Part shown: piece by piece, positions 3,501 to 64,000 of the stretch | Layout of the letters: every line of letters begins with the position of its first letter | Numbering within the stretch: the first letter of the stretch is position 1 | Assembly: GCA_009746045.1 (NCBI GenBank) | Contig: RPFO01000594.1 | Location: forward strand, 209,001 to 273,000 | DNA from: Mesostigma viride | Taxonomy: Eukaryota; Streptophyta; Mesostigmatophyceae; Mesostigmatales; Mesostigmataceae | Reading direction: 5' to 3' | DNA: 64,000 nt | Made by a program: the position numbers and the translations under genes | The notes under the pieces: model-generated | What the model was told of the DNA's origin: nothing | Database searches by the model: none | What the model saw: the letters and a program-made list of their open reading frames with translations, nothing else

Positions 3501-6500
3501 TGGATATATATGGATGCGGATATTGAGATTGGGAACGGGAACGGGAACGGGAACGGGAAGGAAAAGGGGAATGGGAATGGGGATGGGGATGGGGATGGGG
3601 ATGGGGATGGGGATGGGGATGGGGATGGTGATGGTGATGGTGATGGTGATGGGGATGGGGATGGGGATGGGGATGGGGATGGGGATGGGGATGGGGATGG
3701 GGATGGGGATGGGGATGGGGATGGGGATGGGGATGGGGATGGGGATGGGGATGGGGATGGGGATGGGGATGGGGATGGGGATGGGGATGGGAATGGGAAT
3801 GGGAATGGGAATGGGAATGGGAATGGGAATGGGAATGGGAATGGGAATGGGAATGGGAATGGGAATGGGAATGGGAGTTGGGATGGCAGTGGCAGTGCTA
3901 TTGGTATCGCTAATGTCGATGACAACAACAGCGACACAGGTCATGATGACGACAGCGACAACTGGCGTGTCAAACGATATCCATGGTGGAACTTGAGAGC
4001 GCCGCGTGCCACCCACATGTTGTTGTAGAACAGCGACGAATGCACGTAGTTGAAGGGAAGACCAGGGACCACGATGGGCCGTGCAAACCCCTGGCCACAG
4101 GACGCGCACGCGTCCGCGTCCCAGTTCTCCACCTCCACTGTGGCGCTCGCCCCGTCGAACTGGGCATCGCCGCTCGAGGCGGTGAACGTCAATTCTATCT
4201 CCTGCGGCGCGTCCAGCACGCCGTCCAGCGGGAAGACTGCCGTGAAGGACTGCGGCGTCTGCCAGGCGCCGACGGTGAACACGAGCGGGCCGCCCTGCAG
4301 GGTGACCTGGTCACTGGCGGCACTGGCGGCCCCGGTCACGGTAACAGTCGCGGTGGGTGCCGCCGTAAGCTCCACGTTGATCGTTGCGGTCTCGTTCTCG
4401 CTGATAATGAGCCAGCGTGGGGTCACGCTCAGGGGGGGGCGCGTGACGTGGCTGTTGAGGAATAGGTTGGGGGTGCCATCAGGGAGATTCTGCGCCAACC
4501 CTGTCACCGCCGAGTGGGATACGACGGCCTCCCAGACCTCCTCGGGCGTGGCGCCTGTGTGCTGGCTGAGGTATAGCGCGACCACCCCTGCCTGGGTTTA
4601 GGGTTTAGGGTTTAGGGTTTAGGGTTTAAGGCAGGCAGGCAGGTGGCCGCGCAAGGTAGGGATGTTGCCCCAGGTGCCACCGTGTGGCAGGAAAAGTGTG
4701 CAACAGGCGTTCATGAGGAAATGTGCGCAACCAGAGGGAGCAGGCGTTCATGAGGAAAAGTGCGCAACCAGAGGAAGCAGGCGTTCATGAGGAAAAGTGC
4801 GTAACCAGAGGAAGCAGGCGTTCATGAGGAAAAGTGCGCAACCAGAGGGAGCAGGCGTTCATGAGGAAAAGTGCGCAACCAGAGGAAGCAGGCGTTCATG
4901 GCGGTGAGCTGGCGTATCAGCAAAAGCCAGATAGGATGAGTGGTGTCGCCGGGGGAGGGGCAGCAGCAACAAGCGTGTGGTGTGGCGAGGCACGCTCACT
5001 GTAATGCGAGGTGTGCCAAGGGGGCGACGCTACATGACCCCTCATGCACGTGCGTGTGCGGGATGCGCAGGATAAGGGGCACCGATTGCAAGCGAGGGTG
5101 GGGAACTTGCGACACAACCCTGGCAGCCGATGAGTGTATGCACCTTATCCTGGCATCCGGCACGAGCAGAGCGAGACCGTCACAGAGACGCCGTGGCAGA
5201 GAGGCGCAGCACGAGCCATAGTAGTGCTCATAGTACCTTATAGTGACCAGAGCGAGTAGCGTATTGTGACCGATCACGATCACGTCGGCGCTCTGCTCGA
5301 CGGTGATGCTGACAAGGGCCCAAATGACAACCACCGCGCTGCACAGCAAGCTAGCACACGCCACCCGCCAACCGGGAGGTGCCGCATGCCTTTACCCGTT
5401 CTGAGCTCCACCCTTGACACACAAGGGCCACGTGACATACGTGCGTGCTCCGTGTGCTGGGTGGAGGTGCTCTGTGCGTGCGTTGGGTGGGCGCCGCTCG
5501 ATATGTATGGGCCACGGGAAATGCATGCGCCGCTCCCAACCCAGCTAGAGGGGAACTACCCCCACGCGCAAGCATGAATCCGCGTGAGAAGGATGGCAAG
5601 CAGCCAGCGGGTGCGGCCCCAAGCGCATGTGCGCCAGCGGAGCCTACCCAGAGATTCAGCGGGCAAGCGCCTTGGTGGCTGACCTGCAGAGGCTAACTTC
5701 CAGGCTGGCTAGAAAGCGGCTGGCCCGAGGCCGCCTCGCCCCTACCGGGGAGGCGTGCACACATTCCGATGCGACATCACGTGTGCGTGCAGCCAGCACA
5801 CGTCACGCAAACAATCCGACGTGCGGGCAGACAGCACCTACCACGTGGGCGGCTGCCATGGACGTGCCGCTCCGCGTCCCCGTGTGGTCGGTGACTTCGT
5901 CTGTGTATAGGTCGCTCGAGAGGATGTCGGCGCCAGGGGCCAGGATGTCCACGCACGTGCCCGCGTTCGAGTCGTGGGTGAACGCCATCTCCCTGACGGT
6001 GTAGGGCACGTGAGGGGCGAGCGCCACATGACGGTGTAGGGCGGCCCCACGGGGGGGTTCGACGGCAGCGGTGAGCGGCGAGGGATGCGGCCCCCTGCAA
6101 AGCTTAGTACTACTATATCGACAAGAATAACACCTTCTACTTACGAGAATTGCATCTTACGCTTCCAAGAACGACACCTTTTGCTTACAAGATCAACACC
6201 TTGTACTTACAAGAACGGCACCTTGTACTTACAAGAACGGCACCTTGTACTTACAAGAACGGCACCTTACACGTACAAGAACGGCACCTTACACTTACAA
6301 GAACGGCACCTTACACTTACAAGGACAGCACCTTGTACTTACGAGAACGGCGTCTTATTCTTACGAGAATAGCATAGCAGTATTGTATTTTCGAGAATAA
6401 TCACTACTATCTCACAAGAGGAATGTCTTATTCGTACAAGAGTGATGTCTTATTCTTACAAGAGTGATGTCTTATTCTCACAAGAGGAATGTCTCATTCT

Positions 6501-9500
6501 TACAAGAATGACATCCATCTGTTGCAAGTAGTGTGTGGGTGGGGGGGAACCCGGCAGGGTGTTGCTTCTGTGATCCCCTAACAGACATACAAAACATGGT
6601 CCTGGAAGTAAGATGGTGCGAGACAAGGATAGAAGCACATAGCATACTATATCTAACATAACGAAACGAGGATAGAAGCACACACTAGGACAAGCTGTCC
6701 CACCATCTTTGATGAAGTAAGGATCTGCATGCGCTGGGTTCCCGTGACTACAGAATCCCACGACTCTCTATACCTATCCGCCAGCCCGTGACCCGGTGGG
6801 CCGGCGAGACCGACCGATAAAGCCAGGCACGGTTGCGAGATATGCCGTGACCCAGGCTGATGCTCTCAGCCTTGAGCAACCCTATCATGAACCCAGGGTA
6901 TAAACCAACTTCCAATGCCACGCACAAAGGAAAAAAAAGTATAACCTTACAAAGCCGCGCACAATGTCAAAAATGTCTATGCATTCGGCGTTATACTCGC
7001 CAGAAGTGACCAGCTAGCTGTGCGTGCTTGGATGGGCGACCTCAGGGGCGTGACGTAGTCAACGCCGACTCTGGTAATACATAACACAGCACCCGGTGAG
7101 CTGGACAGTCCCACCAACAGAATTCCAGAAGGAACACTGTTGCCGCCCCGTTCATTTAGAGGTCGGGCGCACGCCCGAATGGGAACGTGCCTAAACCACG
7201 ATGCAATGGTACGAGTGCGGCTACAAGGATCGCAACTGAGTGAAGGGGCAGGGGACCCAAGTAGTCCGACCCGGACGACGACTCACCGGTCGACCGCGCC
7301 CACGTTGATGGCGTACCGGCTGGCCAGCCTACGGCACGCATCCACGTCGTCATTGCCCGCCGCCGTCACGACCGTCACGCCCGCCTCGACCAGCCGGCGC
7401 ACGGCCTCGTCGTACGCTGTCGAGTATTGGATGTCTATATCCCACGCGAGCGACAGGTTCACAACCGCCGGTTTCTGGTGGTTCGCCAGCACCCAGGCCA
7501 GCGCGGCCAAGACGTGGGCCAGGGTGGTGTAGCCAGAGCAGTCGAGCACGCGTAGCGAGAAGAGGTTGACCAGCTTGGCCACGCCGTAGGTGGTCCCCCC
7601 CATCGTCCCGGCGACGTGGGTGCCATGACCGTTGCAGTCGATGCCGTTGTACCCATCACCCACAAAGTCCATGCTGGAGGACGCAACCGCACGCGACCCG
7701 CCGTTCGCCGTCCTGCGAGGGGGGCACAAGAAGGAAGCCACGCTCACGCGTGATGAATGAGGGAACGTGCCGGTGGAGACCAGGGGGCCAAGGGGCAAGT
7801 GGCGAGCCAGAGCAAGAGCTTTGAGCCTCGGTAAGATGCTAGCGCCCACCACGGTGTGGAAGGCCAGGATGAGGACGTTTGCAGATAAACGGGTAACAAA
7901 GGGAAACAAAGGGAAACAAAGGGAAACAAAGGGAAACTAAGGGAAACAAAGGGAAACAAAGGGAAACAACAAAGGGATGAGAGGGAAGGGGTGCTAGGTA
8001 GTGGGGCGCGGAGGGTAGCTGAGTTCTCCATAACCCGGGTAGGGAGGAACCGTTCGCCAGAAATATTCATCACCGCCCTCGGCTGGTCGCATCTGTGCAC
8101 CGACGTACCGACAGTCTTACCTGTGGACCAATCCTCTGCGTCAAGAAATGGATCGAGAGCACTTTCTTAGCAGCGCGATACAGAATGAATATAATTACTC
8201 TTATCATTTCGTAGTAGTAGTTACTGTAGCAGCGCGATACAGAATGAATATAATTACTCTTATCATTTCGTAGTAGTAGTTACTGTAGCAGTGCGATACA
8301 GAATGAATATAAATACTCTTATCATTTCGTAGTAGTAGTTACTGTAGCAGCGCGATACAGAATGAATATAATTACTCTTATCATTTCGTAGTAGCAGTTA
8401 CTGTAGCAGTAGTTACCCGGCAGGGCTTGTGCCCTAGCCATGGTTGCTGCTGCCATGGCAGCTGCGCAGCTGTCGTCCGTAACACGACATGCTGCGGATG
8501 CGTAGCCTCTCACGTCACTGCGCTGACCCCTTCCTTTTTCCTTTTGCGGCACCTGGCAAGCGGCGAGGATGCTACAATACCCGTGGCGAGAGGCTAAGGG
8601 GATGCATCACCCATGGTCAATAAGTTTTACTATAATAAGTTTTACTATTAATGAATGGATCTTCTATGCTTACACAAAGGCTCTGGATAAGCAAGCTATA
8701 CCAGTACTACCATCCAACTACTTAGGATGTATCGAGAGCATGTTGTATATAGAGTAGGTTGTGTCGAGAGCAGGTCGTGTCGAGAGCAGGTCAGATCTAC
8801 AGCAGGTCAGATCTAGAGCAGGTTGTGTCGAGAGCAGGTTTTGTCGAGAGCAGGTTGTGTCGAGAGCAGGTTGTGTCGAGAGCAGGTCAGATCTAGAGTA
8901 GGTTGTGTCGAGAGCAGGTTGTGTCGAGAGCAGGTTGTGTTGAGAGTAGGTTGTGTCGAGAGCAGGTTGCGTCGAGAGCAGGTTGTGTCTAGAGCAGGTT
9001 GTGTCGAGAGCAGGTCAGATCTAGAGCAGGTTGTGTCGAGAGCAGGTTCTGCCAAGAGCAGGTTGTGTCGAGAGCAGGCTCTGTCTAGAGCAGGCTTGTA
9101 TTGGTAGCTGCGGGTTTGTATCGGTAGCTTGATCAAGCAAGTCATGATTTGCCCTCATATGGGGCCCATGGACCAGGAGCCCAAAACCAAACCAAGCCCA
9201 AAACCAAACCGATTCCCCCGACCCTGCGCTGCCACCCACCACCCGTGCAAGCACAGGCAGGCACTTTGCGCACCGATGCCTTGAAAAAAAAAAAACGCTG
9301 TCGCATCGTCAACCCCATGACTTGGCCCCCCCCCTGCAGTCTACCAGGCTTGTTGCGCCCACGCCCACGCCCACGCCCACGCCCACGCCCACGCCCACGC
9401 CCACGCCCACGCCCACGCCCACGCCCACGCCCACGCCCACGCCCACGCCCACGCCCACGCCCACGCCCACGCCCACGCCCACGCCCACGCCCACGCCCAC

Positions 9501-10819
9501 GCCCACGCAACTCTGTAGGCCTTACCAGTATGGTTTTTTTGGCTGCCTGTGGTACTTTTGGGGAGCATCCCCACTCACCGGAACTCGACGTGGTCCACCT
9601 GGATGCCCGTGTCGACAACGTACGCGTTCACGCCCTGCCCCGCCGCGTCCTCGTCGTAGCTGTACGCCCCGTCCTCGCTCGCGGGGCTGTCGATGCGGTC
9701 GAGACCCCACAGGGCCGCCTCCCCGATCGTCTGGCTGACGAGGCCGGCCGGGCGCATCTCGTGGTCCCGCTCCACGAAGCGCACGCGGCCCGCGTGCGCC
9801 CCCAGCAGGGACTCGAGGGCGGCCAGGGACATGGTGATCGCGAACCCTCGGAACATGGCGCCGCGCGACGGACCTTGAATCGGCAGGGCAGCCGCCTCCG
9901 CCCCTCCCGCTTCTGGCCCAAGTTCCGGTTCAGGCCCTAGTTCCGGTTCTGGCCCAAGTTCCGGTTCAGGCCCAAGTTCTTGTTCTGGTTCACGTTCGTG
10001 GGTAGGGGGGTGGGACCACGGGGACATGGTCCCTGAGACGCCCTCGGCGCGGTGCCCTTGCCTCGGTGGCCTCGCGAAGCCGCAGGCGTCCGCGTCTCGC
10101 GGGGGGGCGTACCCGTACCGGAACGTGCACCTCCCTGCGAATCGCCGCAGGGGGGCCTGGCCGGATGCCTCGGCGCACACGCCCTCGATCACGTCCTCCC
10201 CCACGTGGTCCTCCCATACCACAATCCACCGTTCCTCCTCCTCGTCACCGAGCAACCGGCGCGGGCCTGCACGAGACTCGCCGCTGGCCACGCCAGCGTC
10301 GCCCCTCACTACCCCGCGCCCCAGACACGGATCCCATGTCCGCTCCACGACACCTGGCGCCTCCCAAGCCCCAGTCGGCCTCACCTGGTGGCCAGGGGCG
10401 CCCTCTTCGATCGTGCCGTTTTGGGTCACGGCACGCCGCAGGCCGTAAACGGGGGCGAGGCTCGGCCCGAGAATGAGAGCGTCCCTGCCTTGCGGACGAG
10501 TAGCTTCTGGCAGCTCGGCGCCAGGCACATGCGGATGGACCCCATCGTCTCGTACAACGTTCTGGCCATTGCTGGTGTCCTCCCCTGGGCTTGTCTGACG
10601 GGCAGCCGGGCTCGCGATTATGAGAACGGACACCAGCACTGCGACCATAAGGTGGCCATAGAGCCTCCCTGGGTCAAGGCACATGCGCGAGCGCTTCTGG
10701 CACACGGTGTGGCCCAGGCTGCATGGATCTGGGAGACCGCCACTAAGGTTCGTGAGGGCCACCCCTCTCGACAGGGGGTCGGTTGGCCCGGACCTAGCAC
10801 CTGGCAAGCTGTCCATCAC
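453..10819 (-). CDS. Secreted subtilisin-like serine protease (S8), multi-exon
   Basis: Exons in order: 10819-9579, 7712-7287, 5992-5842, 4591-~4013, 3049-2766, 2139-2042 and 525-453. Intron phases agree at every junction except exon 4/5, where the boundary is unresolved: a donor at 4012 needs the AAG acceptor before 3039, while the acceptor at 3050 needs a different donor. The catalytic triad is Asp403 (VVDTGI), His443 ([10 protein letters not shown]) and Ser600 ([10 protein letters not shown]), with the oxyanion Asn in AAGND. A hydrophobic segment (residues 56-74) suggests secretion, and Met46 at 10684 would place it as a normal signal peptide, so the start is either 10819 or 10684. The order is prodomain, protease domain (about 370-650), Calx-beta-like domain (656-765), then a Cys-rich beta module. 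A stop codon was not found left of 453, so the end is probably outside the window. The family call is firm; the substrate is unknown. Confidence 0.88.
907..1115 (+). repeat. (GGCG/GGCT)n tetranucleotide array in subtilase intron 6
   Basis: Mixed GGCG and GGCT tetramers give open frames in several directions; these are artefacts of the repeat. Confidence 0.95.
1693..1836 (+). repeat. (CCCCT)n pentanucleotide array
   Basis: Nearly pure CCCCT pentamers with a few 4-base interruptions, within subtilase intron 6. Confidence 0.95.
2042..3049 (-). CDS. Subtilase exons 5-6: C-terminal Cys-rich beta module
   Basis: Exon 5 (3049-2766) encodes [21 protein letters not shown] followed by a Cys-rich segment of the form CDDDC-x8-CDDGG ... 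C[10 protein letters not shown]. Exon 6 (2139-2042) encodes [11 protein letters not shown] and ends at GVTYF. A 73-base exon at 525-453 adds [20 protein letters not shown]. Phases agree across both junctions (G|AG, then phase 0). The series resembles the beta-sandwich modules with ISTCGSSFDT-like signatures common in secreted algal proteins. A role in substrate or wall binding is inference. Confidence 0.65.
3060..3325 (+). repeat. Degenerate ~22-base tandem repeat
   Basis: Repeated variants of TTGGGGCATTATAGTGAACGG, strongly diverged, immediately upstream of subtilase exon 5 within its intron. Confidence 0.75.
3531..3875 (+). repeat. GGGAAC/GGGGAT/GGGAAT hexamer array
   Basis: Sequential blocks of GGGAAC, GGGGAT (interrupted by GGTGAT) and GGGAAT hexamers make up ~345 bases of subtilase intron 4. 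The G-rich strand is opposite to the gene. Confidence 0.95.
4013..4591 (-). CDS. Subtilase exon 4: end of peptidase plus Calx-beta-like domain
   Basis: The exon begins AGVVALYLS directly after a CAG acceptor that terminates a telomeric repeat. About 49 residues complete the peptidase fold (TPEEVWEAV helix). They are followed by about 110 residues with Calx-beta-like features: [20 protein letters not shown], a VTVTG strand, [12 protein letters not shown] and the closing strand ATVEVENWD. Then [15 protein letters not shown] opens the C-terminal beta module. The 3' boundary is tentative (donor at 4012 or further left). Confidence 0.75.
4594..4628 (+). repeat. Interstitial telomeric repeat (GGGTTTA)5
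   Basis: Five perfect 7-base units of the plant-type telomere sequence lie inside the third subtilase intron. On the gene strand they read as TAAACCC units whose last CCC is followed by AG, forming the intron's 3' splice site. Confidence 0.95.
4704..4900 (+). repeat. 37-base minisatellite, 5 copies
   Basis: Unit begins CAGGCGTTCATGAGGAAAAG; five nearly identical copies plus a 12-base partial, within subtilase intron 3. Confidence 0.95.
5842..5992 (-). CDS. Subtilase exon 3: catalytic Ser
   Basis: Fifty codons carry the CVDILAPG strand and [10 protein letters not shown] with Ser600. The acceptor TCAG|G at 5993 is preferred because spacing from GAVDR to CVDI then matches the proteinase K family residue for residue. 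The donor GTG|GTAGGT at 5841 is phase 0 and joins AHV to AGVVALYLS of exon 4, as expected for the helix carrying the nucleophile. Confidence 0.9.
6119..6510 (+). repeat. 22-base minisatellite, two related blocks
   Basis: About ten copies of a unit like CTTACAAGAACGGCACCTTG (6119-6370), then a related block with GTGATGTCTTATTC (6400-6510), in subtilase intron 2. Confidence 0.9.
7287..7712 (-). CDS. Subtilase exon 2: catalytic His and oxyanion Asn
   Basis: The acceptor CGCAG|G at 7713 restores the Arg codon split by exon 1. The exon encodes [10 protein letters not shown] with catalytic His443, the substrate-binding strand near VVNLSLAW, and AAGND with the oxyanion-hole Asn. It ends CG|GTGAGT at 7286, phase 2. 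Confidence 0.9.
7891..7972 (+). repeat. GGGAAACAAA decamer array
   Basis: Eight tandem decamers with single substitutions, in subtilase intron 1. Confidence 0.9.
8171..8409 (+). repeat. 59-base tandem repeat, 4 copies
   Basis: The unit starts CAGCGCGATACAGAATGAAT. Copies begin at 8171, 8230, 8289 and 8348 with only a few base changes. Confidence 0.95.
8753..9100 (+). repeat. 16-base minisatellite (~20 copies)
   Basis: Unit GTTGTGTCGAGAGCAG, with interspersed variants carrying CAGATCTAGAG; lies in subtilase intron 1. Confidence 0.95.
9356..9508 (+). repeat. (CCCACG)n hexamer array
   Basis: About 25 perfect units, 70 bases inside the intron from the exon 1 donor of the subtilase. Confidence 0.97.
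9579..10819 (-). CDS. Subtilase exon 1: signal, prodomain, catalytic Asp
   Basis: The exon carries the N-terminus, an I9-inhibitor-like prodomain beginning near [14 protein letters not shown] (residue 197), and the start of the peptidase domain with Asp403. The prodomain is interrupted by an acidic, proline-rich stretch with four EPELGP-type hexapeptide repeats (about residues 277-302). The donor is CG|GTGAGT at 9578, phase 2. I9 prodomains usually act as intramolecular chaperones and inhibitors that are cleaved off on maturation. The repeat insert is not a normal part of that fold. Confidence 0.8.
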
Positions 10820-13700: not shown

Positions 13701-13749
13701 AAGGCCGTGAGGGCCAAATGGGGGGCCGAGGGCCCAGTGGGGTCAGCGG

Positions 13750-15229: not shown

Positions 15230-15381
15230 GGGGCTCGGCCCAGCACAGGTGGGTTCATCGCCAAACGACTCGGCCCAGCACGGTAGGGGTTTGTGTCCTA
15301 ATGACCCAGCCCAACGCGGTGGGGGATCATCTCCAGACGTCTCAGCCCAGCGAGGGCTGACTCAAACGAGCCGGGGCTGAC

Positions 15382-15410
<29 letters not shown>
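15230..15410 (+). repeat. Degenerate ~40-base repeats overlapping the ERV1 stop codon
   Basis: Four to five diverged units of the type CTCAGCCCAGCACAGG followed by GGTTCATCTCCA. The last unit is the end of ERV1 exon 9, including its stop codon; the others lie downstream. Confidence 0.75.
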
Positions 15411-27184
<11,774 letters not shown>

Positions 27185-27413
27185 CAGGCCCTCCCCCTGG
27201 ACCACGCAGGAGGCATCGCAGGATGCGATGATGAGGCATCCGTCAAATGGTGAAGCGAGACGGGGCCAGGCCACACACACAATGGGAAAGATGTAAAGGA
27301 AGCGGTGGAAAGGGGCCCACGGGGAAAGCCAGGGAGGAAGAAAGGGAGGAGAGGGAGACAGAAGGGGAAGGAGGGATGAAGAGAGGGATGAAGAAAGGGA
27401 GGACAAGGGGAAG

Positions 27414-34014: not shown

Positions 34015-34067
<53 letters not shown>

Positions 34068-45300: not shown

Positions 45301-45401
45301 GGGTGAAAAGGGCGAGGGGGAGGATTGAGTGGGGAAAGGGGAGGGGGGACTACCGGGAGATCCCAAATAGACAAAACTAGGGGGATACATGCACACCAAT
45401 A

Positions 45402-45439
<38 letters not shown>

Positions 45440-45909
45440 TGATTAGGAGAAACCAGGGGGGATACATGCACACCGAGACACAGCCCCGAAGGTTTCTCGC
45501 GGTCGACAAGGTGCTCTCAGCTACACGTATCCGATGTTTCGCTACATTTTCATCCTGCACATCCCTCTCCTGGGCGTGTACTCTTCCTCCCTGCCCTTTT
45601 AACTGGGTGAAAATAATTCACACAATCTGCAACGGGGCGCTCACCTGCGCCGCCACGAGTGACGCCTGGTGCACCTCTGGCCCCACCAAATTGGGTGGGT
45701 CCCCATCCTCAGCCCCATTCTCCTCCCCTGCCTTGCCGCTTCCCGCCGCCCCCATCCCCCCGGTGCCCTTGAGCTTGGTGACGTACTGCAGCTTCAACGC
45801 ATCGGGGTCGATCACCACCGCGTGGTCCCCGTACTGCTCCCAGAAGGGGGTCCCTGCGATCGCGTTGGCGACAGTGGACTTGCCCGCACCCATGCCGCCG
45901 CCCAGGAAG
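42343..45909 (-). CDS. Thioredoxin/kinase gene, exons 3-7: zeta-toxin-like kinase domain
   Basis: Exon 45909-45645 carries the P-loop ([10 protein letters not shown]) and [12 protein letters not shown]. Exon 45167-44958 carries [19 protein letters not shown]. Exon 44425-44159 carries [56 protein letters not shown] and [10 protein letters not shown], the usual zeta-family order of strand, arginine helix and lid. The last two exons add a C-terminal tail ending MSRGALYSI. In bacteria this fold phosphorylates UDP-sugar substrates. Eukaryotic relatives are mostly uncharacterised, so a toxin role is not implied. Confidence 0.8.
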
Positions 45910-48900: not shown

Positions 48901-51900
48901 CCATGGCCACATCCCCCCGAGCAAACACGAGCGCGAGACGCTGGAGGGTCGGCTCGAGCTCCGTGCACACCTGGCACCCGCGCGAGGCCCACATGACCAG
49001 CAGCGCCGCCGAGTCGGGGCCCGTGTCCAGGTGGGTCGCGCTGCTCGCCGCGAAATTGGCCGAGAATGACACGGGTGACACGGAACTTATTGCAGGAACG
49101 CCCGCGGTCGCAGGGAGGGCGGGATGGGAGGCGGATCCTGAGGGAGAGTCGGAGGAAGAAGCGACGACAGATGCCGCAGAACCGAGGGCGGGAAGAGAGG
49201 GGGCCGACGGGGGGGTTGGATGGGAGGCGGGATCCACAGACCATCCACCGAAACCCTGCGGACCTCCCTGGGCATTGCCAACCCCGCTGGCGCCCACAAC
49301 TGATAGCCCCTCCCGAGGGCCGTGCTTCTCCCGGTGGGACTTGCGCCGGTGGCGGTGACGGGAAGGGGAAGACGGCGCATCTTCGCCGACTGGGCTTGAT
49401 TCTCTGCCGGGCCCGCTGCTGACATGCCCCCTCGAAGGACACTCATCAACATGCTCACTGGAATGGTCATCGTCGTCAGAATCACTGCTCGAACTGGCAT
49501 CCGCCGCCAAACTGCCGTCGGCCGAGGATGGCGCCCCTCCGCCCAGCAACATCCCCCGCGACCCCCCACGCTCGCCCGCGGCTTCCCTCCCGTCGACCGG
49601 CCTCCCCTCCCCTTCCCTTACCTCGGAAGGCGACTCGGAGGGCGTCCCCCTTCCCCGCGCCTCCACCCCACGTTTCCCCCTCGACTCCACCGTGGGGAGC
49701 GCGGGCCAGAAGCCCTTCTTGACCACGCCCCCAGTGGGCGGCCCAGGGTCCTCCAGGGGTGCCGGCGGCGAGAGCGCGAGCGAGAGGAACGTGTCGACCG
49801 ACAGCTCCACGACGGGGGAGCGGGAGAGGTCGCGCCACACGCGCGCCCACTCGGAGCCCTTCTCGCTGATCGTTCCCAGCCGCATGTCCTTGCTGCGCAG
49901 CGCCCCCACCTCCGCCGTGCGCGCCCCCGATCGGCCGTCCTTGCTGGGCCCGCCGCGCTGCCTGCGCGGGCCGCTCCTCCCGCCACCCCCTCCACTGCTG
50001 CTGGTGCTGTTGTTACTGCTGACGATGGCCGTCCTGCTGAGGCCGCCAGGCGGTCCCAGCGGAGCCACCGCAAGGGCTCCATTCTCCGCGCCATCGCCGC
50101 CACTAACTACATCACCTCCTGCAGCCGCACCCGGTGGTGACGCCGCCACTGTCGGCCCCGAGGTGGACGCCGGCGTCGTCGGGTTTGACGGGACGGGCCT
50201 TCCGAAGGAAGCGGGAGAATTCCCCGCCACCATCGAAGATGCCGACGCGGATCCCAAGGCAAACTCCGCCCCCACCCCACCCCTCGCCTGACCACCCCCC
50301 TCCCCTGACGCGGTCGTGGCGGCATTTGCAAACATGCTCGCGAGGCCTGGCTCTGCTGCCTCGGTGCTACTGTACTCGTTGTCCATGCGCCCCCACTCAT
50401 CCGCGTCATCCGGTGGCAGCAGCAACGAGCCGCCGTCCCATCGTATTGGCAACACGACCACGCAATCCGCGTCGTAGTCATCCAGCTGACGCCTCCGCAT
50501 CACGTCTCCTGTGCCCTCCCCGCCCTCACCCCCACCCTCTGGGCGGATCTTCCTGGCACCCGTGATCCTGCTGCTCATCAACCCCCCGAGCGCGAGCGTG
50601 GTCGAGGACGCTAGCAGCTCCTGCCAGGGGGCCCGACCGGGGGCCTCTTTCGGGAAAGACTCCATGGCAGCATCTTCGTGGCGGCGGGCAGCATCCACGC
50701 CGAATACCCCAGAGGCCCCAACACTGTCTTCCCGGGCAAACTCCGCGGCACCATCTCTTACTGCAGAACTCCCAAGCACAGTCGGGTCGCCATGCATAAT
50801 GCTCGCGACGCCACCAGGACCCTGGGCTGGGGCTTGGGCTTCCAGGGACGTCAACCCCGGGTGCTTGCTGTCGGCCGCCGGTGCCCCATCCTCATCCTCC
50901 CCCGCGAGAGAGAGGCCCACCTCCAGCGTCGTGGACGACGGCGATGCGGGAACCAGAGAAATGCTGGCATCCAAGTGGCCAGAGGACGGCGCCAGCGACG
51001 CCAGCATGGGGCCAATGGCGGGCGCGACGGTGACGGATGAGAGAGATGGCAGTTGCACGCCTGCGCCAGTTGCCAATTGCGCACCCGCGCCAGTTGACAA
51101 TTGCGCGTCCGCGCCAGTTGACCGTTGCTGCATGCCTGCGTCGATGCCCTCTGCCTGGGCGGTGCTGCTCTGCCGGCCCTGGTCTGGTTCAGCTAGGGAG
51201 CGGGACCGCTTGCCGGTGCCGGCATGAATGAACGCCGACGTGGCGCCGTCCTCCGCCAGCACGTCGGCCGGCGAGAGGAAGGGGGAGCCTTGGAGGCCGT
51301 CTCCCTGGGACCTACTGGCGGCGGCCGCGTCGCTGCCTGCCTCGCTGGCCTCGCCCTCCCTCGCACCTGTGCCTGCTTCCCACGTTTGCTGAGATGGTGA
51401 CAACGACAACGATGAAGAAGAAGAAGAAGAAGAAGACGACTGCGATGGCATCGATCCTATGGGCCCTTGCCCTTGCGATTGCCCTTGCCCATCCCCCTGC
51501 CCATCAGCTTGCAGGAGCTCTGCCTCCACCCCTCCGGGCTGTCCTGGCTGCAATAGTGACGGCAGTAGCTGGGATGGCTCATTGCCACTCCAGGCCATGC
51601 TGCCCGCATTACCGCCCACAGCACTTGGTCCCCGCTCACCATTCCTCTCTTCATCACTCCCATCATTACTGTTGGAGGTGCTGGCATCATTATGGTTGCC
51701 ACCAAGTGCCGCTGCAACTGCGGCCGCTGCCCCAAGTTTATTCTTCTCTCCATCCCCCCCTCTCCCGCCCTCCTTGTCCTTAATCATATCCCCCTTTGCC
51801 TCTGCACCCCTGTTCATGTCCCTATTCATGCCCTTGCCCATGTCCCTACTCGTGGCTTTGCTGGCCTCCTTGCTGGCGTCCTTGCGAGGCTTTGGCGCGC

Positions 51901-54900
51901 CGTACTTCTTCCGGAGCGCGCTGACACGCGGCCGGTTGGACGCCAGCAGCGCGTCCACGTCGTCCCATCGCTCGAAGTACATGTGGTGGAGGCGTTCCAG
52001 GTGCCACACAAGCGTGTCCATGATCTGAGGATCCAGGGGGCCGTGAACAGCGAGGCGGAGAGGGGAAAGGAGAGCGAGGGGAGGAAGGGAGAGTGAGTGG
52101 GGGACGGGGAAGGGCGAGGGAAATTGGCAGAAAAAAGGGGGTCGTGGAAGATAGAATCCGCAGACATGTGCCACACTAGTGTGTGCATGGTCTGGCGCAA
52201 AGGGGAAGGGGGGCAGTTGGGTGGAACTCGGAGAGTCTGGCAGGAGAGAGGGAGAGTTAACAAGGAGAGAGGGAGAGTCAACGAGGAGAGAGGGAGAGTA
52301 AACGAGGAGAGAGGGAGAGTTAACAAGGAGAGAGGGAGAGTCAACACGGAAAAAGGGCGAGAAAGAAAGAAGGACAGGGAAGGTGAGGGGGAAGGGAAGG
52401 GGAAGGGGAAGGGGAAGGGGAAGGGGAAGGGGAAGGGGAAGGGGAAGGGGAAGGGGAAGGGGAAGGGGAAGGGGAAGGGGAAGGGGAAGGGGAAGGGAAG
52501 GGGAAGGGGAAGGGGAAGGGGAAGGGGAAGGGGAAGGGGAAGGGGAAGGGAAGGGGAAGGGGAAGGGAAGGGGAAGGGGAAGGGGAAGGGGAAGGGGAAG
52601 GGGAAGGGGAAGGGAAGGGAAGGGGAAGGGAAGGGGAAGGGGAAGGGGAAGGGGAAGGGGAAGGGGAAGGGGAAGGGGAAGGGGAAGGGGAAGGGGAAGG
52701 GGAAGGGGAAGGGGAAGGGAAGGGGAAGGGGAAGGGAAGGGGAAGGGGAAGGGGAAGGGGAAGGGGAAGGGGAAGGGAAGGGGAAGGGGAAGGGGAAGGG
52801 GAAGGGAAGGGGAAGGGGAAGGGGAAGGGAAGGGAAGGGGAAGGGGAAGGGGAAGGGGAAGGGGAAGGGGAAGGGAAGGGGAAGGGGAAGGGGAAGGGGA
52901 AGGGGAAGGGAAGGGGAAGGGGAAGGGGAAGGGGAAGGGGAAGGGGAAGGGGAAGGGGAAGGGGAAGGGGAAGGGGAAGGGGAAGGGGAAGGGGAAGGGG
53001 AAGGGGAAGGAAAGCGAGTGACATGGGAAAGCGGGTGGGAGAACGAGCACACAATGTGGGTGCAGGTCGAGGTTTCATTTGGGGAATCAGGATGGCAGCA
53101 GCAATCAACAAAATATCCGCTATTTAGATATTCGTGATATTGTAACATGTTAATGACAGCATGATTACAGACAACGTCTAGTATTGCAGTAGGTATCGTA
53201 GTGGTTATATACAAGTATTTATATAGTAGTTACAGACAACGCCTAGTACTAATAAACACTAGTAACTAGTAGTGAGCTCAAGCTGGCACCGCCAGCACAG
53301 CAGACGCACTGGTACACTCATAGTTCATACATGCGATTACCAAGATACAGGGGAACGCTGTCCCTGTCATAAACTACCACGCCTGGGAATGCGGGGGAGC
53401 TACCACAGTGATTGCTACCCTGTAGCACTGGTTTACCGCTAAAGATCAGGCATGGTGTGATGCGATGGCAGATTGGCATCCTTACTTGGCCACAGTGAAC
53501 GCTTACCATTGCAAAGCAAGCGTAAACATCCAAGGTTCATGCGCGATGCTTGTCTCATTACAAGGATCATGCACAAACCTAGACAAAATGTTCATGCACA
53601 AACCTAGACAAAATGTTCATGCACAAACCTAGACAAAATGATCATGCACAAACCTAGACAAAATGTTCATGAACAAACCTAGACAAAATGATCATGTACA
53701 AACCTAGACAAAATGTTCATGTACAAACCTAGACAAAATGATCATGCACAAACCTGGGGAAGGGGAAGGGGAAGGAAAGCGAGTGACATGGGAAAGCGGG
53801 TGGGAGAACGAGCACACAATGTGGGTGCAGGTCGAGGTTTCATTTGGGGAATCAGGATGGCAGCAGCAATCAACAAAATATCCGCTATTTAGATATTCGT
53901 GATATTGTAACATGTTAATGACAGCATGATTACAGACAACGTCTAGTATTGCAGTAGGTATCGTAGTGGTTATATACAAGTATTTATATAGTAGTTACAG
54001 ACAACGCCTAGTACTAATAAACACTAGTAACTAGTAGTGAGCTCAAGCTGGCACCGCCAGCACAGCAGACGCACTGGTACACTCATAGTTCATACATGCG
54101 ATTACCAAGATACAGGGGAACGCTGTCCCTGTCATAAACTACCACGCCTGGGAATGCGGGGGAGCTACCACAGTGATTGCTACCCTGTAGCACTGGTTTA
54201 CCGCTAAAGATCAGGCATGGTGTGATGCGATGGCAGATTGGCATCCTTACTTGGCCACAGTGAACGCTTACCATTGCAAAGCAAGCGTAAACATCCAAGG
54301 TTCATGCGCGATGCTTGTCTCATTACAAGGATCATGCACAAACCTAGACAAAATGTTCATGCACAAACCTAGACAAAATGTTCATGCACAAACCTAGACA
54401 AAATGATCATGCACAAACCTAGACAAAATGTTCATGCACAAACCTAGACAAAATGATCATGTACAAACCTAGACAAAATGTTCATGTACAAACCTAGACA
54501 AAATGATCATGCACAAACCTAGACAAAATGTTCATGTACAAACCTAGACAAAATGATCATGCACAAACCTAGACAAAATGATCATGCACAAACCTAGACA
54601 AAATGATCATGCACAAACCTAGACAAACCGTTCATGTACAAACCTAGACAAAATGTTCATGCACAAACCTAGACAAAATGTTCATGCACAAACCTAGACA
54701 TAATGTTCATGTACAAATCTCAAAAACACCTGAACCAGCCATCGGGAGTGACATAACGCCTGGATCAGAGAGCTCCCCTAGATGGAAAACGGGCTCGAAA
54801 AACCGATCGCAAAAATTGAAGGGAAAAAAGCCACCCCCAGTCCCACCTGGACGCTGAAATACCTGCAGGGTACATACGCTGACTACCCGCAGTACGATGG

Positions 54901-56706
54901 CTACCCGCAGTGCGCACGAAGACGCGATGGGATATCAAAGAGACAACCAGCGCAGGTCCGGAATAGTAACAAGAAGGTATGACTAGCTACTGTAGAGGAT
55001 ATGAGAGCTACTTTACAGTAACAACCACCCGCATAAAAAAATGAAATCCGAAAAGTGCCACGCACCTGGACGGTTATGTAATGCTGGCGACGCAACGGGT
55101 TCATCTCCCCTTCCCCCCCGACCCCGACCCCCTCGTCGCTCATGTCCATCCCCCCAAAGTCATCCACGCCCGCCCACCGCCCCACGTCGCGGCTCATGCG
55201 GCAGGCCAGGTGCTGCAGCAGCCACAGCATATGGCGGCGGTCTATCGCTGTGTCGAACCGGCACAGGTAGAGCAGGGCCAGGTCGCGGATGAGGGACTCT
55301 GGCAGCCGCGAGAGCCGCCCGTCCAGCGCGAAGTAGCACGCGACGTACTCGTCGAATGACGGCACGCCAGGTGGCGACACGGGGGCTTGCCAGGAACCGC
55401 CGCAGTTGGGAATTGTGTCGCTGACTTGCTCCAGGGGGGCAATGACGCCGCTGCCGCTGACTTGCTTTTCTGTGGGCCGACCGCCGCTGCCACTGCCAAT
55501 ACCTTGCGCTTGGTTGGACTCACTGAAGGTATCGCTAGCTGGCAGGGCAGCAGGGCCACGGCCACCATCGCTGCTACTACCGTTTTGAAAGGGAATCGGG
55601 CCTTTGGCATCATCGTTGCCACCCTCGGCGGAGACGACGGTATTTGCCCCAAAACTGCCAGCTGGCGTGCCATCATTGGCCACCTGAGGCGACGCCAAGT
55701 CCACCGTCGAACCGCTCCTGTCATGCCATATCTCGCCAGCTGCTATGCCGTCCTCTGCAGGCAACGGAGCCACGTGATAGGACGGCACGTCGCCGCTGTC
55801 CACGACCCCTTCATGGGACGCACGCGATGGCACAGCCCCCTCCCCTGCAGTCGCAAATCCATTCGTGGTGGCGACTGAGCCATTGGCTGTTGTAGGAGGG
55901 GCGCTTGCATGGTAGCCCAAGACCGGGGCTGCGCCCATGCTGCTGTCCGCTGCACCGTTGCTAGTATACACTGCGCCCACGCTGCTGGCCGCTGCGCCAT
56001 TGCTAATGTATGCTGCGCCCACGCTGCTGGCCGCTGCACCATTGCTAATGTATGTTGCGCCCGTGCTGCTGGCCGCTGCATCATTGCTAATGTACGCTGC
56101 GCCCGTGCTGCTGGCCGCTGCACCATTGCTAATGTATGCTGCGCCCCTGCTGCTGGCCGCTGCACCGCGCTTGCTGCCGTGGGGCCTGGGGAACTTGGAG
56201 GATGCCGGGGCGGCCCTGTCGTTGATACCTGTGCTGCCGCCGTCACTGCTCCCGCTCCCCCAGCTGGCATTCCTGGGGCCAGTGCTGCTACCGCCGTCAC
56301 TGCTCCTGCCACTGCTGCTGCCACCGCCACCGGTCCCATTGAGCTTGCCCGTGTGGGCACCCAGGAAACGGGCTTCGTTACGGGTGCCAGAAGTTTGGCT
56401 GTTCCTTGTTGTGGCCGGTTGGCCGGGGGGGCCTAGGCCATGGGTATCTCGCTCATTTCCAGGGGAATCAGGACGGAGTGTGGCATCCCAGCTCCTGCGG
56501 TCAGGACCCGCGGCATCCTGGACGCTGCGCATGCGGGAGAGCAGTTCTTCTTGCGACCGCCCCGCGTTGACCCCGTTCTTCCGCTGGCTTCCGCTCATGC
56601 TGGCGTCACTGCTGTGATCCGTGGAAGCGCTGCCGCCGCCGCCGCCGGCGCTGCTGCTGCTGCTGCTGCCGCATGGCCCCGGATGGTGTGAGGAGGGTGA
56701 TGACAT
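42343..56706 (-). CDS. Giant thioredoxin-fold / zeta-toxin-like P-loop kinase protein
   Basis: Exons: 56706-55066, 52024-46836, 45909-45645, 45167-44958, 44425-44159, 42996-42876, 42590-42343. Phases agree at all six junctions and predict about 2646 residues. The key join is AT|GTATGT at 46835 to CCAG|C at 45910, which creates a hydrophobic strand running into Walker A ([15 protein letters not shown], Lys2287). Residues about 1545-1860 form a split thioredoxin fold with C1564-Q-V-C1567 and the cis-Pro segment AYPT (P1817). The C-terminal ~370 residues match the zeta-toxin/PezT-like kinase pattern: Walker A, IDPDALK, a VHQAS helix, and GRDIVLDGT. Most of the remainder is Ser/Gly/Pro/Ala-rich and probably disordered. 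The start Met at 56706 is tentative; a possible upstream exon lies at 57624-57844. Substrate and pathway are unknown. Confidence 0.75.
45402..45440 (+). repeat. (AAT)n array between short direct repeats
   Basis: About 12 AAT units, flanked on both sides by GGGGGATACATGCACACC-type sequence (45381 and 45459). Confidence 0.9.
46836..52024 (-). CDS. Thioredoxin/kinase gene, 5.2-kb central exon with split thioredoxin fold
   Basis: The acceptor CCTCAG|ATC at 52025 follows a pyrimidine-rich tract. The first ~50 residues ([21 protein letters not shown]) look folded. Then come ~900 residues of low complexity (poly-Ser, GQGQ, TGAGAQL repeats) and a short conserved-looking block, [21 protein letters not shown]. 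The thioredoxin part follows: [18 protein letters not shown] (CxxC codons at 48965-48976), a ~200-residue Ser/Gly/Asp-rich insert, then VIVGRLHG and [14 protein letters not shown]. It ends [20 protein letters not shown] before the kinase. A 5-kb exon is striking among genes whose other exons are mostly 50-430 bases. Confidence 0.7.
52390..53015 (+). repeat. (GGGGAA)n hexamer array, ~620 bases
   Basis: GGGGAA units with scattered 5-base GGGAA slips occupy the intron just upstream of the central exon of the thioredoxin/kinase gene. The long Pro/Phe/Ser frames across it are not coding. Confidence 0.97.
52992..54521 (+). repeat. 765-base tandem duplication
   Basis: 52992-53756 and 53757-54521 are almost identical at a constant 765-base offset. 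Each runs from the tail of the GGGGAA array through unique sequence into a 25-base minisatellite. Confidence 0.93.
53565..54715 (+). repeat. 25-base minisatellite in both duplication copies
   Basis: Unit GTTCATGCACAAACCTAGAC followed by AAAAT; about 8 copies in the first and 15 or more in the second segment, with GATCATG and GTACAAA variants. Confidence 0.93.
55066..56706 (-). CDS. Thioredoxin/kinase gene, first supported exon
   Basis: The exon opens [15 protein letters not shown] and is Ser/Gly-rich. It contains a 14-residue tandem repeat (consensus [14 protein letters not shown], about five copies, encoded near 55932-56165). It ends in an ordered, probably helical segment: [49 protein letters not shown]. 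The donor CAG|GTGCGT at 55065 is phase 0 and joins to [17 protein letters not shown] of the next exon. I do not recognise the helical domain. Confidence 0.65.
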
Positions 56707-60696: not shown

Positions 60697-63600
60697 ATGG
60701 GATACCGTAGCAGAAGTCGGAGTTACAGCCCCCCGCGTGGAGGTGGGGGTGGATATGGAGGAGGTTACGGGGGTGGAGGAGGTGGTTCCCGCGGCGGGGG
60801 TGGAGGCGGAGGCCGTCGGAACTCGCCTCCTCAGAGCGGCCGCAGTCTGCTTGTTCGAAACCTCGGGCGCAATGTTCGGTAAGAGATCATATCGTTTGTG
60901 GCAGGTGCTCAAGCGCTCTTGGTCGAGACTGCAGTGCTGTTTCTAACCGTTATGATTGTCTGCACTTTGTTATGCAGAATGGAAGACCTGCGCTATTCGT
61001 TCGAGAAGTACGGCCCCGTGAAGGACATTTATCTTCCCAAGGACTACTACACGGGGTGAGGACTTGCATTCATTGAAGCCTAAATGTTCGCCTCGATTTG
61101 TTGTGGCTACTTTCGCAGTTGCGAGGTTTACCATTTAATTTCCCGTTGTTCTGTGTTGTGAATGTTTGTAACCTTTTGTAGTACATGTCATCCTGCTTTC
61201 GGACTTTTCGTGTATTAGGAACGGGCGGTGACGCCATTTCTGTAAAGTCGGTTGGGATTTTCTCCCCGCTGCCTGCGTGACAGTGGCTTACGGGCCCATG
61301 ACATGAGTGCTGCCCTGGTCTCCCTTGCATAGTATTGAAGAAGCTGCGGCGCAAAAAGTCACTGGACCGGCGGCCTATGTTTAAATGAAGCCGAGCCAAG
61401 AAAAGTCCAAGAAGTTTTGAAAGTGGGGTTGCAGTCAAGAGAATTCAAGCGGAGAGTCCGAATGAGCAGAAGACGAGAGAAGAAGCGAAGCCAAGTGAAG
61501 CCAGAGGCATGGGATCTTATCACTAGAGATGAAGAGCGGTTCGAAGTGAAGATATTTTTAGAGCCCAGGCTGGCAGAGGAGAAGAGATACGAAGCACAGT
61601 GGGTGGTTCTCTTGAAGACCAAGGTATGTTTGTTCATTATTACCAAGGACCTCTGATTGATGCACATTATTGGCACTTGGCGCCTAGCCATTGCATCACT
61701 CAAGCATGCGACTTACAGGGATAGTCCCTTTGCATAATAATTGCAACCGCTGTGGCGCCTCCTGCGCTTGATGCTCCTAAATCTCTTCTGATTGACGATT
61801 TGCATGAATCAAGCAACGTGCTTGCCAGTTGGATATGTTGAAGGGTTTTAAATTGTCACATTAAGGCTGCGAAGGTTTACCCTGGGTTCATGGCAGAGGA
61901 GATGTTTCATAGAGTGCTGGTTAAGGAACTCACCTGGTTTTATGGTTGACTGTGAAGCAATGGCTTGGCCATGTCAGTACCCTCATATCCTCCTTCAGCC
62001 GGCAGCATTATTAGCAAATGTCATTTTTTGATATACGTGTTAACTGGACGCGTTTTATTCTAGTGCCGCCGGCAGACTACATGCGACGTAGCTATTATTA
62101 TGTGTTCAGCAAAAAAAACAGCAGACCAGGTTCCTGCCCGCATTGCCTTGTGCCTGCGCCTCCCGCTCATCCATCTTGTGAGTGGGTAATGCTGCTAATG
62201 CACAGGCAAGCTTGGTCGAGCATGTATTTTTTGTTTGGATGCTTTCGGTGTCAGGCCGGGGCTGGTTGTGACACAGATACTATGCTGCTAGCTATAGCGT
62301 CGCTAAGCCTGCGCAGGTTGTCTTGATTGTCTTACTCACATGTGTTGCAGTACTGCCCCAAGTCTTTGCACCATTTATAACGAGAACAGTTTTCCATGAT
62401 TTACCTTTGGCTATTGCGGTAGCGGCAGCCAGCGGTGATTGCCAGCTTGGTGCTGGCGAAGCAAGGTTGTTGCCATGGTTGTAGGTTCAACATGTTCTCG
62501 TTTGTCGTGTAGCGGTTGAGAAGGGAGATGTCATGCAAACCATGGAGAATGCTCTCACAGAGACTTTGGGCGGCATCGTGAACAATAATATGATAATAAT
62601 AGTAATAACAATAGTAACTTTAATAATCATAACAATAACAATAATAATATGTATGTGCAATGAACATGGTACGCAGCGCGCGTACCATGTCGGAGGCGGT
62701 CGTCTCGTTGTTTCGTGTACGATATTTTTTTCCATCTTTGCTGACGCACGCGTATTCGTGGGTATGTGCCGGCCTCCCTCTTCTCCTCGCCCCCCGCCTC
62801 CCCCCTTTCCCGTACCCCCATTGCACCTGCCCTCTCTTTGGAACCCAGTGAGCTGCGTGGCTTTGGCTTCGTCCAGTATATCGACCCCGAGGCGGCAGCC
62901 GACGCGCAGTACAACCTCGATCGAACGGAGATTTGTGGGCGGGAGGTCACTGTGGTGAGTTTGTGGTTGGATTCGTACGCCGCTTGACTGACCACCGATG
63001 TTGGCGTCTCCATCTCGTGAGGAAAGGGAGGATGAATTTGCTGCATGGGCCGTCCTAATGCCTCGGTGCCTTCAGAGTTGTCTTGCCCACTTTAGCGCCC
63101 TCCGCGTTATTATCCACTCCTCACACGCACAGAGCGCACGCAACGCACACAACACGCACACGCGCTCACACACACACATATGCACATGTGCGTGCACACA
63201 CACACACACATGCATACACACACAAGACTCCGCGCGCGCATACACACACACACACACACACATAGCGCCCACGCATTCCACTTACCATGCTGGACACAAT
63301 ACCAGCACATCCCTACTCTCTCGATATTAATTGGTTTGATCTGGAACCCACAGTTTACTCTCGGCCACCCCCCTCCTGCTGGCCTTCTTCTCCCTCTTCG
63401 TCTCTTCCCCCCGCGTCCCCTCCCCCCTCCCTGGCTGCCCCTTTCTCCCTCTCGCGCGCTTTTCCTCTTCCACGTTTTCACTCTTACACGGACGTGCTCG
63501 CATGCACTTTTTGGCACATCTCGCCACACGCCTCCATCCCCCCCCCTCGCCACACCCCTCCCCCCCGCCCAAAACCCCCTCCCCACACTCATGGCCCCCC

Positions 63601-63744
63601 TGTCCCCCCCGCCTCTCCCACCTCAGGTGTTTGCGGAGGAGAGCCGCAAGACCCCTCAGGAGATGCGCAGCAAGGAGCGCAAGGCACCGCCGCCACGTGG
63701 ACGCACCGGATATCCCCCGCGCCGCTCGCCCTTCCGGGGAGGAC
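60697..63744 (+). CDS. SC35-like (SCL-type) SR splicing factor, 3' end outside window
   Basis: Exons: 60697-60878, 60978-61055, 62849-62954, 63627-63744, with consistent phases (2, 2, 0, 1). The protein begins MGYRSRSRSYSPPRGGGGG, then a Gly-rich linker. Then comes one RRM: RNP2 as LLVRNLGRNV, the loop YGPVKDIYLPKDYYTGELRG, RNP1 as RGFGFVQY, and REVTVVFAEESRKTPQEMRS. The DYYTGELRGFGFVQ and AEESRKTPQEMR segments are typical of plant SCL30/SCL33-type proteins, which act in spliceosome recruitment and splice-site choice in the nucleus. The fourth exon ends GYPPRRSPFRGG with a GTGAGT donor; the RS-rich tail must lie beyond 64000. A TTTTGCTAG|G just before the start codon may be the end of a 5'-UTR intron. 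Confidence 0.92.
63166..63265 (+). repeat. (CA)n-rich array
   Basis: Interrupted CA dinucleotides in SR-gene intron 3. Confidence 0.9.
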
Positions 63745-63892
63745 GTGAGTTTTATATTGGTTTGGATGGGTTTAGATTGATATTAGATGGAGTTTCAGAT
63801 TTGCTTAATAGGGTCTTGCACAACTTGGATATGTGGCGTGGGCTGGCTTGCCCGCGGCGCTTGCCCCTCCGCGGAGGACGTGAGTTTTATGT

Positions 63893-64000
63893 TGGTTTAG
63901 ATTGGTTTAGATTGGTTTAGATTGGTTTAGATTGGTTTAGATTGGTTTAGATTGGTTTAGATTGGTTTAGATTGGTTTAGATTGGTTTAGATTGGTTTAG
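63893..64000 (+). repeat. ATTGGTTTAG decamer array, cut by window edge
   Basis: At least ten perfect decamers run off the right end in SR-gene intron 4. Confidence 0.97.

Follow-up and report, generated by a model that had tools for sequence, protein, structure and literature searches.

Copies of exon edges in adjacent introns of Mesostigma viride and their relation to short local direct duplication

Human paralogues carry internal tandem repeats where exons meet introns, with effects on splicing; these repeats are described as variable and recent, as situated in segmental duplications, with half of them in coding exons, and as changing transcripts (PMC2812944). The introns of Chlamydomonas and Volvox contain an excess of tandem repeats that is denser near intron ends (PMC3887541). 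Among short (<100 bp) insertions of the human genome, small tandem duplications are described as the commonest kind, and they can form by end joining at breaks (PMC8355091). Duplicating exonic segments in tandem is also counted among the ways in which introns are gained (PMC3443670; PMC2891723). Here, we analyze a stretch of 64,000 nt from the streptophyte flagellate Mesostigma viride (assembly GCA_009746045.1, contig RPFO01000594.1, positions 209,001 to 273,000, forward strand; referred to below as the window), in which copies of exon edges, often with their splice site, recur in the adjacent intron. We call such a copy an echo and the exon edge that it resembles its master. Most echoes are probably remnants of short local direct duplications, which are general to Mesostigma DNA; they would drift neutrally and stay visible longer at exon edges. 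A preliminary description of the window held that no named mechanism predicts such copies, which is too strong, since boundary tandem repeats, small tandem duplications from break repair, and intron-end repeats of green algae are in print. Small tandem duplications in rice were reportedly treated by Vaughn and Bennetzen in 2014, tandem genomic duplication is said to have been advanced as an intron-gain route by Gao and Lynch in 2009 and by Hellsten in 2011, and Zhuo et al. reportedly derived introns from tandem arrays in 2007.

How does Mesostigma compare with these systems? As in the human boundary repeats (PMC2812944), tandem repeats straddle the exon-intron boundary and are tied to splice sites and altered gene structure; unlike them, most Mesostigma copies are old, present in few copies, and intronic, and they occur at about 30% of the junctions examined. 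The likeness to Chlamydomonas and Volvox lies in green-lineage introns that are rich in tandem repeats, more so toward exon junctions, but those algae are chlorophytes, and the sections of PMC3887541 at hand map repeats by position and make no mention of exon-edge copies with the splice site. Short direct duplications are shared with end joining at DNA breaks (PMC8355091), for which directly adjacent copies would be expected; many of the local copies in Mesostigma are spaced. Intron gain by tandem genomic duplication likewise leaves duplicated splice-site sequence adjoining exons, but in Mesostigma, it is existing introns that appear to grow, and the two ends of an intron are dissimilar. No description of exon-edge copies in Mesostigma was found in the literature searched, which took in few subscription papers.

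Echoes in the window and in chaperonin genes

Five genes with 28 introns (27 complete and 1 truncated by the window end) were modeled in the window; all 28 introns have GT-AG sites and keep the reading frame, giving 55 junctions in total. Junction windows of 60 nt (40 exon plus 20 intron) were locally aligned against the adjacent intron, and a score of at least 14 was counted as an echo. A direct echo was found at 16 of the 55 junctions, with all five genes represented, compared with 0 of 55 for the reverse-complemented intron (highest score, 13), 15 of 1485 comparisons with other introns, and 4 of 312 exon-interior windows. All window echoes have the same orientation as their masters and are found at donors and acceptors alike. 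The best ones lie 21 to 332 nt from the junction, with one weak case at 1149 nt, and a second copy of one junction lies at 411 nt. In these respects (orientation, occurrence in all five genes, distances of tens to hundreds of bases, presence on both the acceptor and the donor side), the preliminary description is borne out. In the comparison of 60-base windows, the junctions exceed exon interiors, reversed introns, and other introns, but windows from intron interiors find a match in their own intron at an equal or higher rate (218/515; outside tandem arrays, 61/319).

Four of the 16 echoes are qualified. At the gene 1 intron 3 acceptor, the match (4594-4631) comes from a telomere-like tandem array ending short of the exon, the gene 4 intron 5 copy contains exon sequence only, and the echoes at the gene 3 intron 2 donor and the gene 4 intron 2 acceptor are weak. 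The repeat at the gene 1 intron 3 acceptor is of the telomere type, (TTTAGGG)n, or CCCTAAA on the gene strand, and lies immediately at the acceptor (4594-4628).

Because the window itself had been chosen for the echoes seen in it, a set of CCT chaperonin genes was added, located by Pfam PF00118 and chosen without regard to echoes; 7 of about 11 were used. CCT-beta, CCT-gamma, and CCT-eta (20 introns) were modeled with a spliced aligner against proteins, two of the three against Mesostigma's own proteins, with identities of 481/501 positions for CCT-beta and 381/394 for CCT-gamma (split codons counted as misses); this alignment rules out a wrong structure for these two genes. Spurious-looking terminal exons (two in CCT-beta, one in CCT-gamma, and two in CCT-eta) were dropped before counting. 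Four more CCT genes (20 introns) were taken from an ab initio gene finder, which, run on the three CCT genes above with a threshold slightly stricter than that used, placed 23 sites correctly and 3 incorrectly; this set pairs neighboring exon calls and omits one or more calls in locus L030, and some of its "introns" may contain a missed exon.

Echoes were found at 24 of the 80 CCT junctions, 11/40 in the protein-based and 13/40 in the ab initio set, with 0/40 and 1/40 in the reversed-intron control and 8/760 and 26/760 in the other-intron control, respectively. Pooled over the window and the CCT genes, 40 of 135 junctions have an echo, compared with 1/135 for reversed introns, 49/3005 for other introns, and 8/433 for exon-interior windows (the exon windows being set slightly differently from those of the separate counts); among intron-interior windows, 419/1063 match their own intron. 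The reversed-intron and other-intron controls exclude chance similarity and shared splice motifs. Exon-edge echoes are thus confirmed as real, recurring in every gene set examined and well above chance. That about 30% of the examined junctions have such a copy, leaving a stock of possible decoy sites, merits the attention of specialists.

Local direct duplication and the junctions

Local direct duplication is general in Mesostigma DNA. Outside arrays, the window contains 50 nonredundant local direct pairs. Splice junctions are spanned by 12 of them, 33 have no overlap with modeled exons, 4 are contained in exons, and the remaining one extends across the end of a coding sequence (CDS). In this last pair, the CDS end of gene 2 is copied into its 3' flank (15234-15263 and 15381-15410), forming an echo of a coding/noncoding border without a splice site. 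At shifts of 15-100, the window yields 36-51 local direct pairs per 100 nt of shift versus 0.4 at distant shifts, and in 12 random 10-kb stretches, local duplicates cover a mean of 17% (range, 2-43%) versus 1.1% at a shift of about 5000. The process suggested in the preliminary description is therefore local, direct, and recurrent, but the pairs wholly outside exons show that it is not confined to exon-intron borders.

A young tandem case sits on an exon edge. CCT-gamma intron 5 (L031, G000:C1702:1281501-1288500, the intron after local position 4512) starts with nine intron copies of the exon end at an exact spacing of 48 bp, a minisatellite whose unit comprises the last 31 exon bases and 17 intron bases. 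After eight of the copies the sequence reads GTGAGC, and after the remaining one GTGCGT, which is also the sequence of the real donor. The exon's reading frame stays open through the array, and later donor use would therefore add 16-residue repeats. Head-to-tail units across an exon-intron boundary were found in this intron and in gene 3 intron 4, both young cases; the older echoes are few, eroded copies. When every array is masked, only 5 of the 135 junctions are lost, 3 of these through short-unit arrays.

Aligned blocks of two near-identical genomic copies of one region differ by 178 substitutions over 9589 sites and by 52 indels. Five of the 16 indels with a length of 6 nt or more are tandem copies (one with a 43-bp unit and one a TAAT repeat), suggesting that duplication of this size is recent or ongoing; none was shown to span a junction. 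Loci L026 and L027 (C1641 and C887) are near-identical CCT-theta-like regions with about 2% substitutions, and a 3.1-kb stretch is present in C1641 only; C1641 may represent an alternative haplotype, or the region may have been duplicated recently. L036 and L037, tried as a second near-identical pair, gave no alignment. An exact direct duplication of 556 bp (53011-53566 and 53776-54331) lies in gene 4 intron 1, with 25-bp minisatellites beside each copy.

We propose that short local direct duplications, which may originate by break repair or slippage, continually reshape Mesostigma introns and intergenic DNA, with visible units of roughly 15-60 bp that can be tandem or spaced and are sometimes amplified into minisatellites. 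Where a unit straddles a junction by chance, the intron-side copy would be harmless as long as splicing keeps the exon-proximal site, and so it would be retained, and a copy landing inside the exon would presumably be eliminated by selection. From then on, the intron copy would drift neutrally, and the exon master would change mainly at silent sites and could not be deleted. Exon-edge pairs should stay recognizable longer than intron-intron pairs because their master is constrained and undeletable, and this protection may account for much of the junction excess.

Is duplication centered on junctions? Coverage by duplicates was compared between junctions and intron interiors in the 68 introns of the window and the CCT genes. 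With nothing masked, junction coverage is 28/135 versus 0.307 in interiors (ratio, 0.67; 95% interval, 0.46-0.92); with short-unit arrays masked, 25/132 versus 0.207 (ratio, 0.92; 0.59-1.36); and with all arrays masked, 24/130 versus 0.067 (ratio, 2.76; 95% interval, 1.91-3.85). The verdict on junction centering depends on how arrays are counted. The second of these counts, in which total junction coverage is not above that of intron interiors, was taken in favor of general local duplication. Among the youngest pairs (identity of at least 0.88), 6/130 junctions are covered with arrays masked, a weak excess (ratio, 1.96; 0.67-5.26), and 7/132 with short-unit arrays masked, a reversal (ratio, 0.40; 0.15-0.75). 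Around donors, coverage with arrays masked is 0.17-0.24 at -20 to +5 (0.24 at the donor) versus 0.08-0.12 at +10 to +40, and around acceptors, it is 0.12-0.13 at -10 to 0 versus 0.00-0.02 at +15 to +30; we counted this drop, which comes where constraint ends, for protection of the master. No clear junction excess emerged from unvalidated exon calls in a further 15 stretches (12 random and 3 beside chaperonin copies), with 6/135 versus 0.078, 5/92 versus 0.075, and 4/44 versus 0.071 at rising thresholds; unvalidated ab initio calls from all other loci gave 6/52 versus 0.068 at a strict threshold.

Several results weigh against general duplication with protected masters. The count per event, judged the fairest because a junction can be included only in the outer copy of a pair or, where there is an array, in its outermost unit, gives 9/54 versus 0.075 expected in the window, a 2.2-fold excess over a uniform process, and 16/78 versus 0.054 in the CCT genes, a 3.8-fold excess (protein-based subset, 8/38, ratio 4.4; ab initio subset, 8/40, ratio 3.5). 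Because this excess held in both CCT subsets, our confidence in general duplication with protected masters is slightly reduced. Allowing a factor of 2 for the protected exon copy brings the window to expectation (9 versus 8.1), and in the CCT genes the excess persists (16 versus 8.4, P = 0.008; by subset, P = 0.026 for protein-based and 0.083 for ab initio models). Simulations with uniform births give a junction/interior ratio of about 0.2-1.1 compared with the 2.76 observed with all arrays masked, and exon constraint lifted the simulated ratio only a little. Nor does "tandem" alone describe the births, because pairs of every age class include spaced ones: the spacer is at most 8 nt in just 9/37 pairs with at least 97% identity and in 5/29 with 92-97%. 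When 13 echoes were tested for intron-side similarity at two-copy tandem spacing, most had none (mean z, 0.47; one case, z of 3.8). A simple two-copy tandem duplication with a unit equal to the echo distance was rejected, as the residual similarity expected from it is absent in most of these 13 echoes.

The alternative that survives best is that duplications arise preferentially at exon-intron junctions, for example, through breaks from transcription- or splicing-linked structures, as was first proposed for this window. It would account for the event-level excess in the window and in both CCT subsets, for the peaks of masked coverage around donors and acceptors, and for the shortfall of simulated uniform births. 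However, the youngest pairs, in which preferential birth should be clearest, show a weak excess or a reversal, total junction coverage is not raised, and the unvalidated calls in 15 other stretches show no clear excess. Protection of the exon copy from mutation and deletion may explain up to about 2-fold of the junction excess. In a simulation with half of the duplications aimed at the junction, 86% of junctions were spanned, far above the data. We consider junction-born duplication unlikely, and the fuller version, in which splicing or transcription marks borders as points of breakage or slippage and introns grow from their ends by copying the exon edge with its splice site, is a shade more doubtful still. 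A weak junction preference may be left in the CCT genes after the 2-fold correction; a modest preference is possible, and the window does not require it.

Drift of the copies and the remaining explanations

Mismatches and splice sites were analyzed in 19 junction-spanning echoes from the window and the first CCT set. On the exon side, 379 of 454 bases are identical, and the mismatches fall on codon positions 1, 2, and 3 in numbers of 18, 16, and 32 (9 unassigned). This pattern fits neutral drift, as it would be expected with an intron copy free to drift and an exon in which changes are mainly silent. Several copies had been said to differ from the true sites mostly by transitions; such a signature was looked for in the 19 echoes and not seen, the mismatches comprising 38 transitions and 37 transversions, similar to the 95 transitions among the 178 substitutions of the two near-identical genomic copies.

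Could selection maintain the echoes because they act as alternative or regulatory splice sites, or because they tune splicing as decoys? GT or AG is retained in 15 of the 19 echoes, in agreement with the earlier suggestion that duplication enlarges introns and gives rise to possible decoy sites, and 7 echo sites equal or exceed the real site in strength; the open reading frame of the CCT-gamma intron 5 array could be read in the same way. However, about 13 of 19 dinucleotides are expected to survive by chance from the identity observed, 12 echo sites are weaker than the real one, mismatches occur at all codon positions, and the distances between real and echo sites are evenly spread modulo 3 (6, 6, and 7). 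In gene 4, the public protein uses the exon-proximal site at each junction, a statement of annotation and not of RNA data. Mismatch pattern and reading frame appear, from sequence comparison, to bear no sign of selection for use of the copies, and we regard selection as very improbable.

If about 30% of junctions hold a near copy, Mesostigma offers a natural experiment on how the spliceosome chooses the exon-proximal site among near-identical competitors, and CCT-gamma intron 5, with nine extra donor copies, exemplifies such competition. Echoes would also serve as directional fossils of intron growth: with an exon master that stays nearly constant, each would document the neutral changes accumulated after it arose. 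Genomes of this kind may also mislead gene finders and splice predictors into placing false exon edges.

An origin of the introns themselves by tandem duplication of exonic segments, with echoes as traces of that birth, has even less to recommend it. The route is treated as documented for intron gain (PMC3443670), but it predicts likeness between the 5' and 3' splice regions of an intron, and 0 of 47 introns reach a score of 12 (mean, 6.98 versus 6.72 for unmatched pairs), a test in which very old births could have lost their likeness. Decayed whole-exon tandem duplications (mutually exclusive exon pairs) are the least credible source, for although some echoes, such as those of gene 3 introns 2 and 3, are readable like an exon start, extended alignments show copies reaching 2 to 47 nt into the exon with one of the two splice sites, and no duplicate of a whole exon with both sites was found among them. 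Introner elements, i.e., sequence common to different introns, were not found among the 68 introns compared, in which junction windows matched other introns at the rate given above for a score of at least 14.

Gene models and coordinates

A different exon-intron structure, which would have undone the echoes, is ruled out for the genes as follows. Between the gene 4 model and the annotated Mesostigma protein P0241, every aligned residue is identical (2631 of 2631), which brings the six introns of the model into agreement with the public annotation at the protein level; P0241 (2788 residues) is 142 residues longer than the model, its annotated start differing and lying further upstream. For genes 1, 2, 3, and 5, near-complete Pfam domains are read across introns: Peptidase_S8 (6-273 of 288) in gene 1, Evr1_Alr (1-92 of 93, residues 357-448) in gene 2, Usp (3-141 of 141) in gene 3, and RRM_1 (1-69 of 70) in gene 5. 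The outer introns of genes 1 and 2 lie beyond the reach of this argument, and the low-complexity N-terminal exons make the gene 2 model less certain. A protein search with gene 5 returned many plant SCL30A/SCL33 proteins among the best 120 of 346 matches, and no Mesostigma entry was among the matches listed (the same best 120). A profile search with chaperonin exons of this genome ranked Mesostigma viride proteins in the first two places. Rfam at the gathering threshold gave no match within the window. Coordinates of genes, echoes, and masters are collected in Table 1.

Table 1. Modeled genes, exon-edge echoes, and masters in the window (positions in the 64,000-nt stretch; scores are those of the local alignment, with the reversed-intron score where given)
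Feature	Span	Strand	Exons or master	Remarks
Gene 1, subtilase	453..10705	-	exons 9579-10705, 7287-7712, 5842-5992, 4017-4591, 2766-3049, 2039-2151, 453-525	in-frame model
Gene 2, Erv1/Alr-type protein	15386..27196	-	exons 26948-27196, 26019-26201, 24192-24326, 22930-23361, 20948-21055, 19600-19647, 18556-18620, 17475-17552, 15386-15490	in-frame model
Gene 3, universal stress protein	30796..36966	+	exons 30796-30843, 31235-31340, 35168-35280, 35894-36012, 36861-36966	in-frame model
Gene 4, zeta-toxin-type P-loop kinase domain protein	42343..56706	-	exons 55066-56706, 46836-52024, 45645-45909, 44958-45167, 44159-44425, 42876-42996, 42343-42590	Pfam PF06414
Gene 5, SC35-like (SCL30A/33-type) SR splicing factor	60697..64000	+	exons 60697-60878, 60978-61055, 62849-62954, 63627-63744	in-frame model
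Gene 1 intron 2, acceptor-side echo	6015..6042	-	master 5976-6007	score 16 vs 10 reversed; AG lost in echo
Gene 2 intron 5, donor-side echo	20856..20882	-	master 20941-20967	23/27; score 19
Gene 2 intron 6, donor-side echo	19445..19479	-	master 19595-19629	26/35; score 17 vs 12 reversed
Gene 3 intron 2, acceptor-side echo	34828..34854	+	master 35159-35186	24/28; score 18
Gene 3 intron 2, second acceptor-side echo of the same junction	34752..34779	+	35163-35190	ungapped pair; score 16
Gene 3 intron 3, acceptor-side echo	35773..35801	+	master 35884-35912	24/29; score 19 vs 8 reversed
Gene 3 intron 4, 30-bp array	36011..36097	+		2.9 copies; first unit = last 2 exon nt + donor
Gene 4 intron 1, acceptor-side echo	52165..52194	-	master 51998-52027	25/30; score 20 vs 13 reversed
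Gene 4 intron 2, donor-side echo	46755..46795	-	master 46809-46849	member of small local repeat family 46621-46809
Gene 4 intron 2, weak acceptor-side echo	46008..46034	-	master 45904-45930	score 16; mostly pyrimidine tract
Gene 4 intron 3, master	45141..45178	-		acceptor + 27 exon nt; model agrees with P0241
Gene 4 intron 3, acceptor-side echo	45238..45275	-		32/38; score 26 vs 11 reversed
Gene 4 intron 4, acceptor-side echo	44535..44565	-	master 44405-44435	25/31; score 19 vs 8 reversed
Gene 4 intron 5, copy of preceding exon end	44054..44093	-	master 44168-44205	score 17; exon only, without splice site
Gene 4 intron 6, donor-side echo	42783..42827	-	master 42867-42912	37/46; score 23 vs 7 reversed
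Gene 5 intron 4, master	63716..63750	+		last 29 exon nt + donor
Gene 5 intron 4, donor-side echo	63851..63898	+		43/48; score 38 vs 8 reversed; continues into (TTGGTTTAGA)n array

The introns of the five genes sum to 32834 nt, and their mean (32834 nt over 28 introns) is close to the Mesostigma mean of 1141.9 bp given in PMC6947507, together with a repeat share of 30.1% of intron space and a total of 24,431 annotated genes. In gene 3 intron 2 (34752-35186), a third, weaker similarity lies upstream of about 34965, in addition to the two acceptor-side copies. Gene 4 exon 46836-52024 provides 5189 nt of low-complexity coding sequence preceding the zeta-toxin-type kinase domain.

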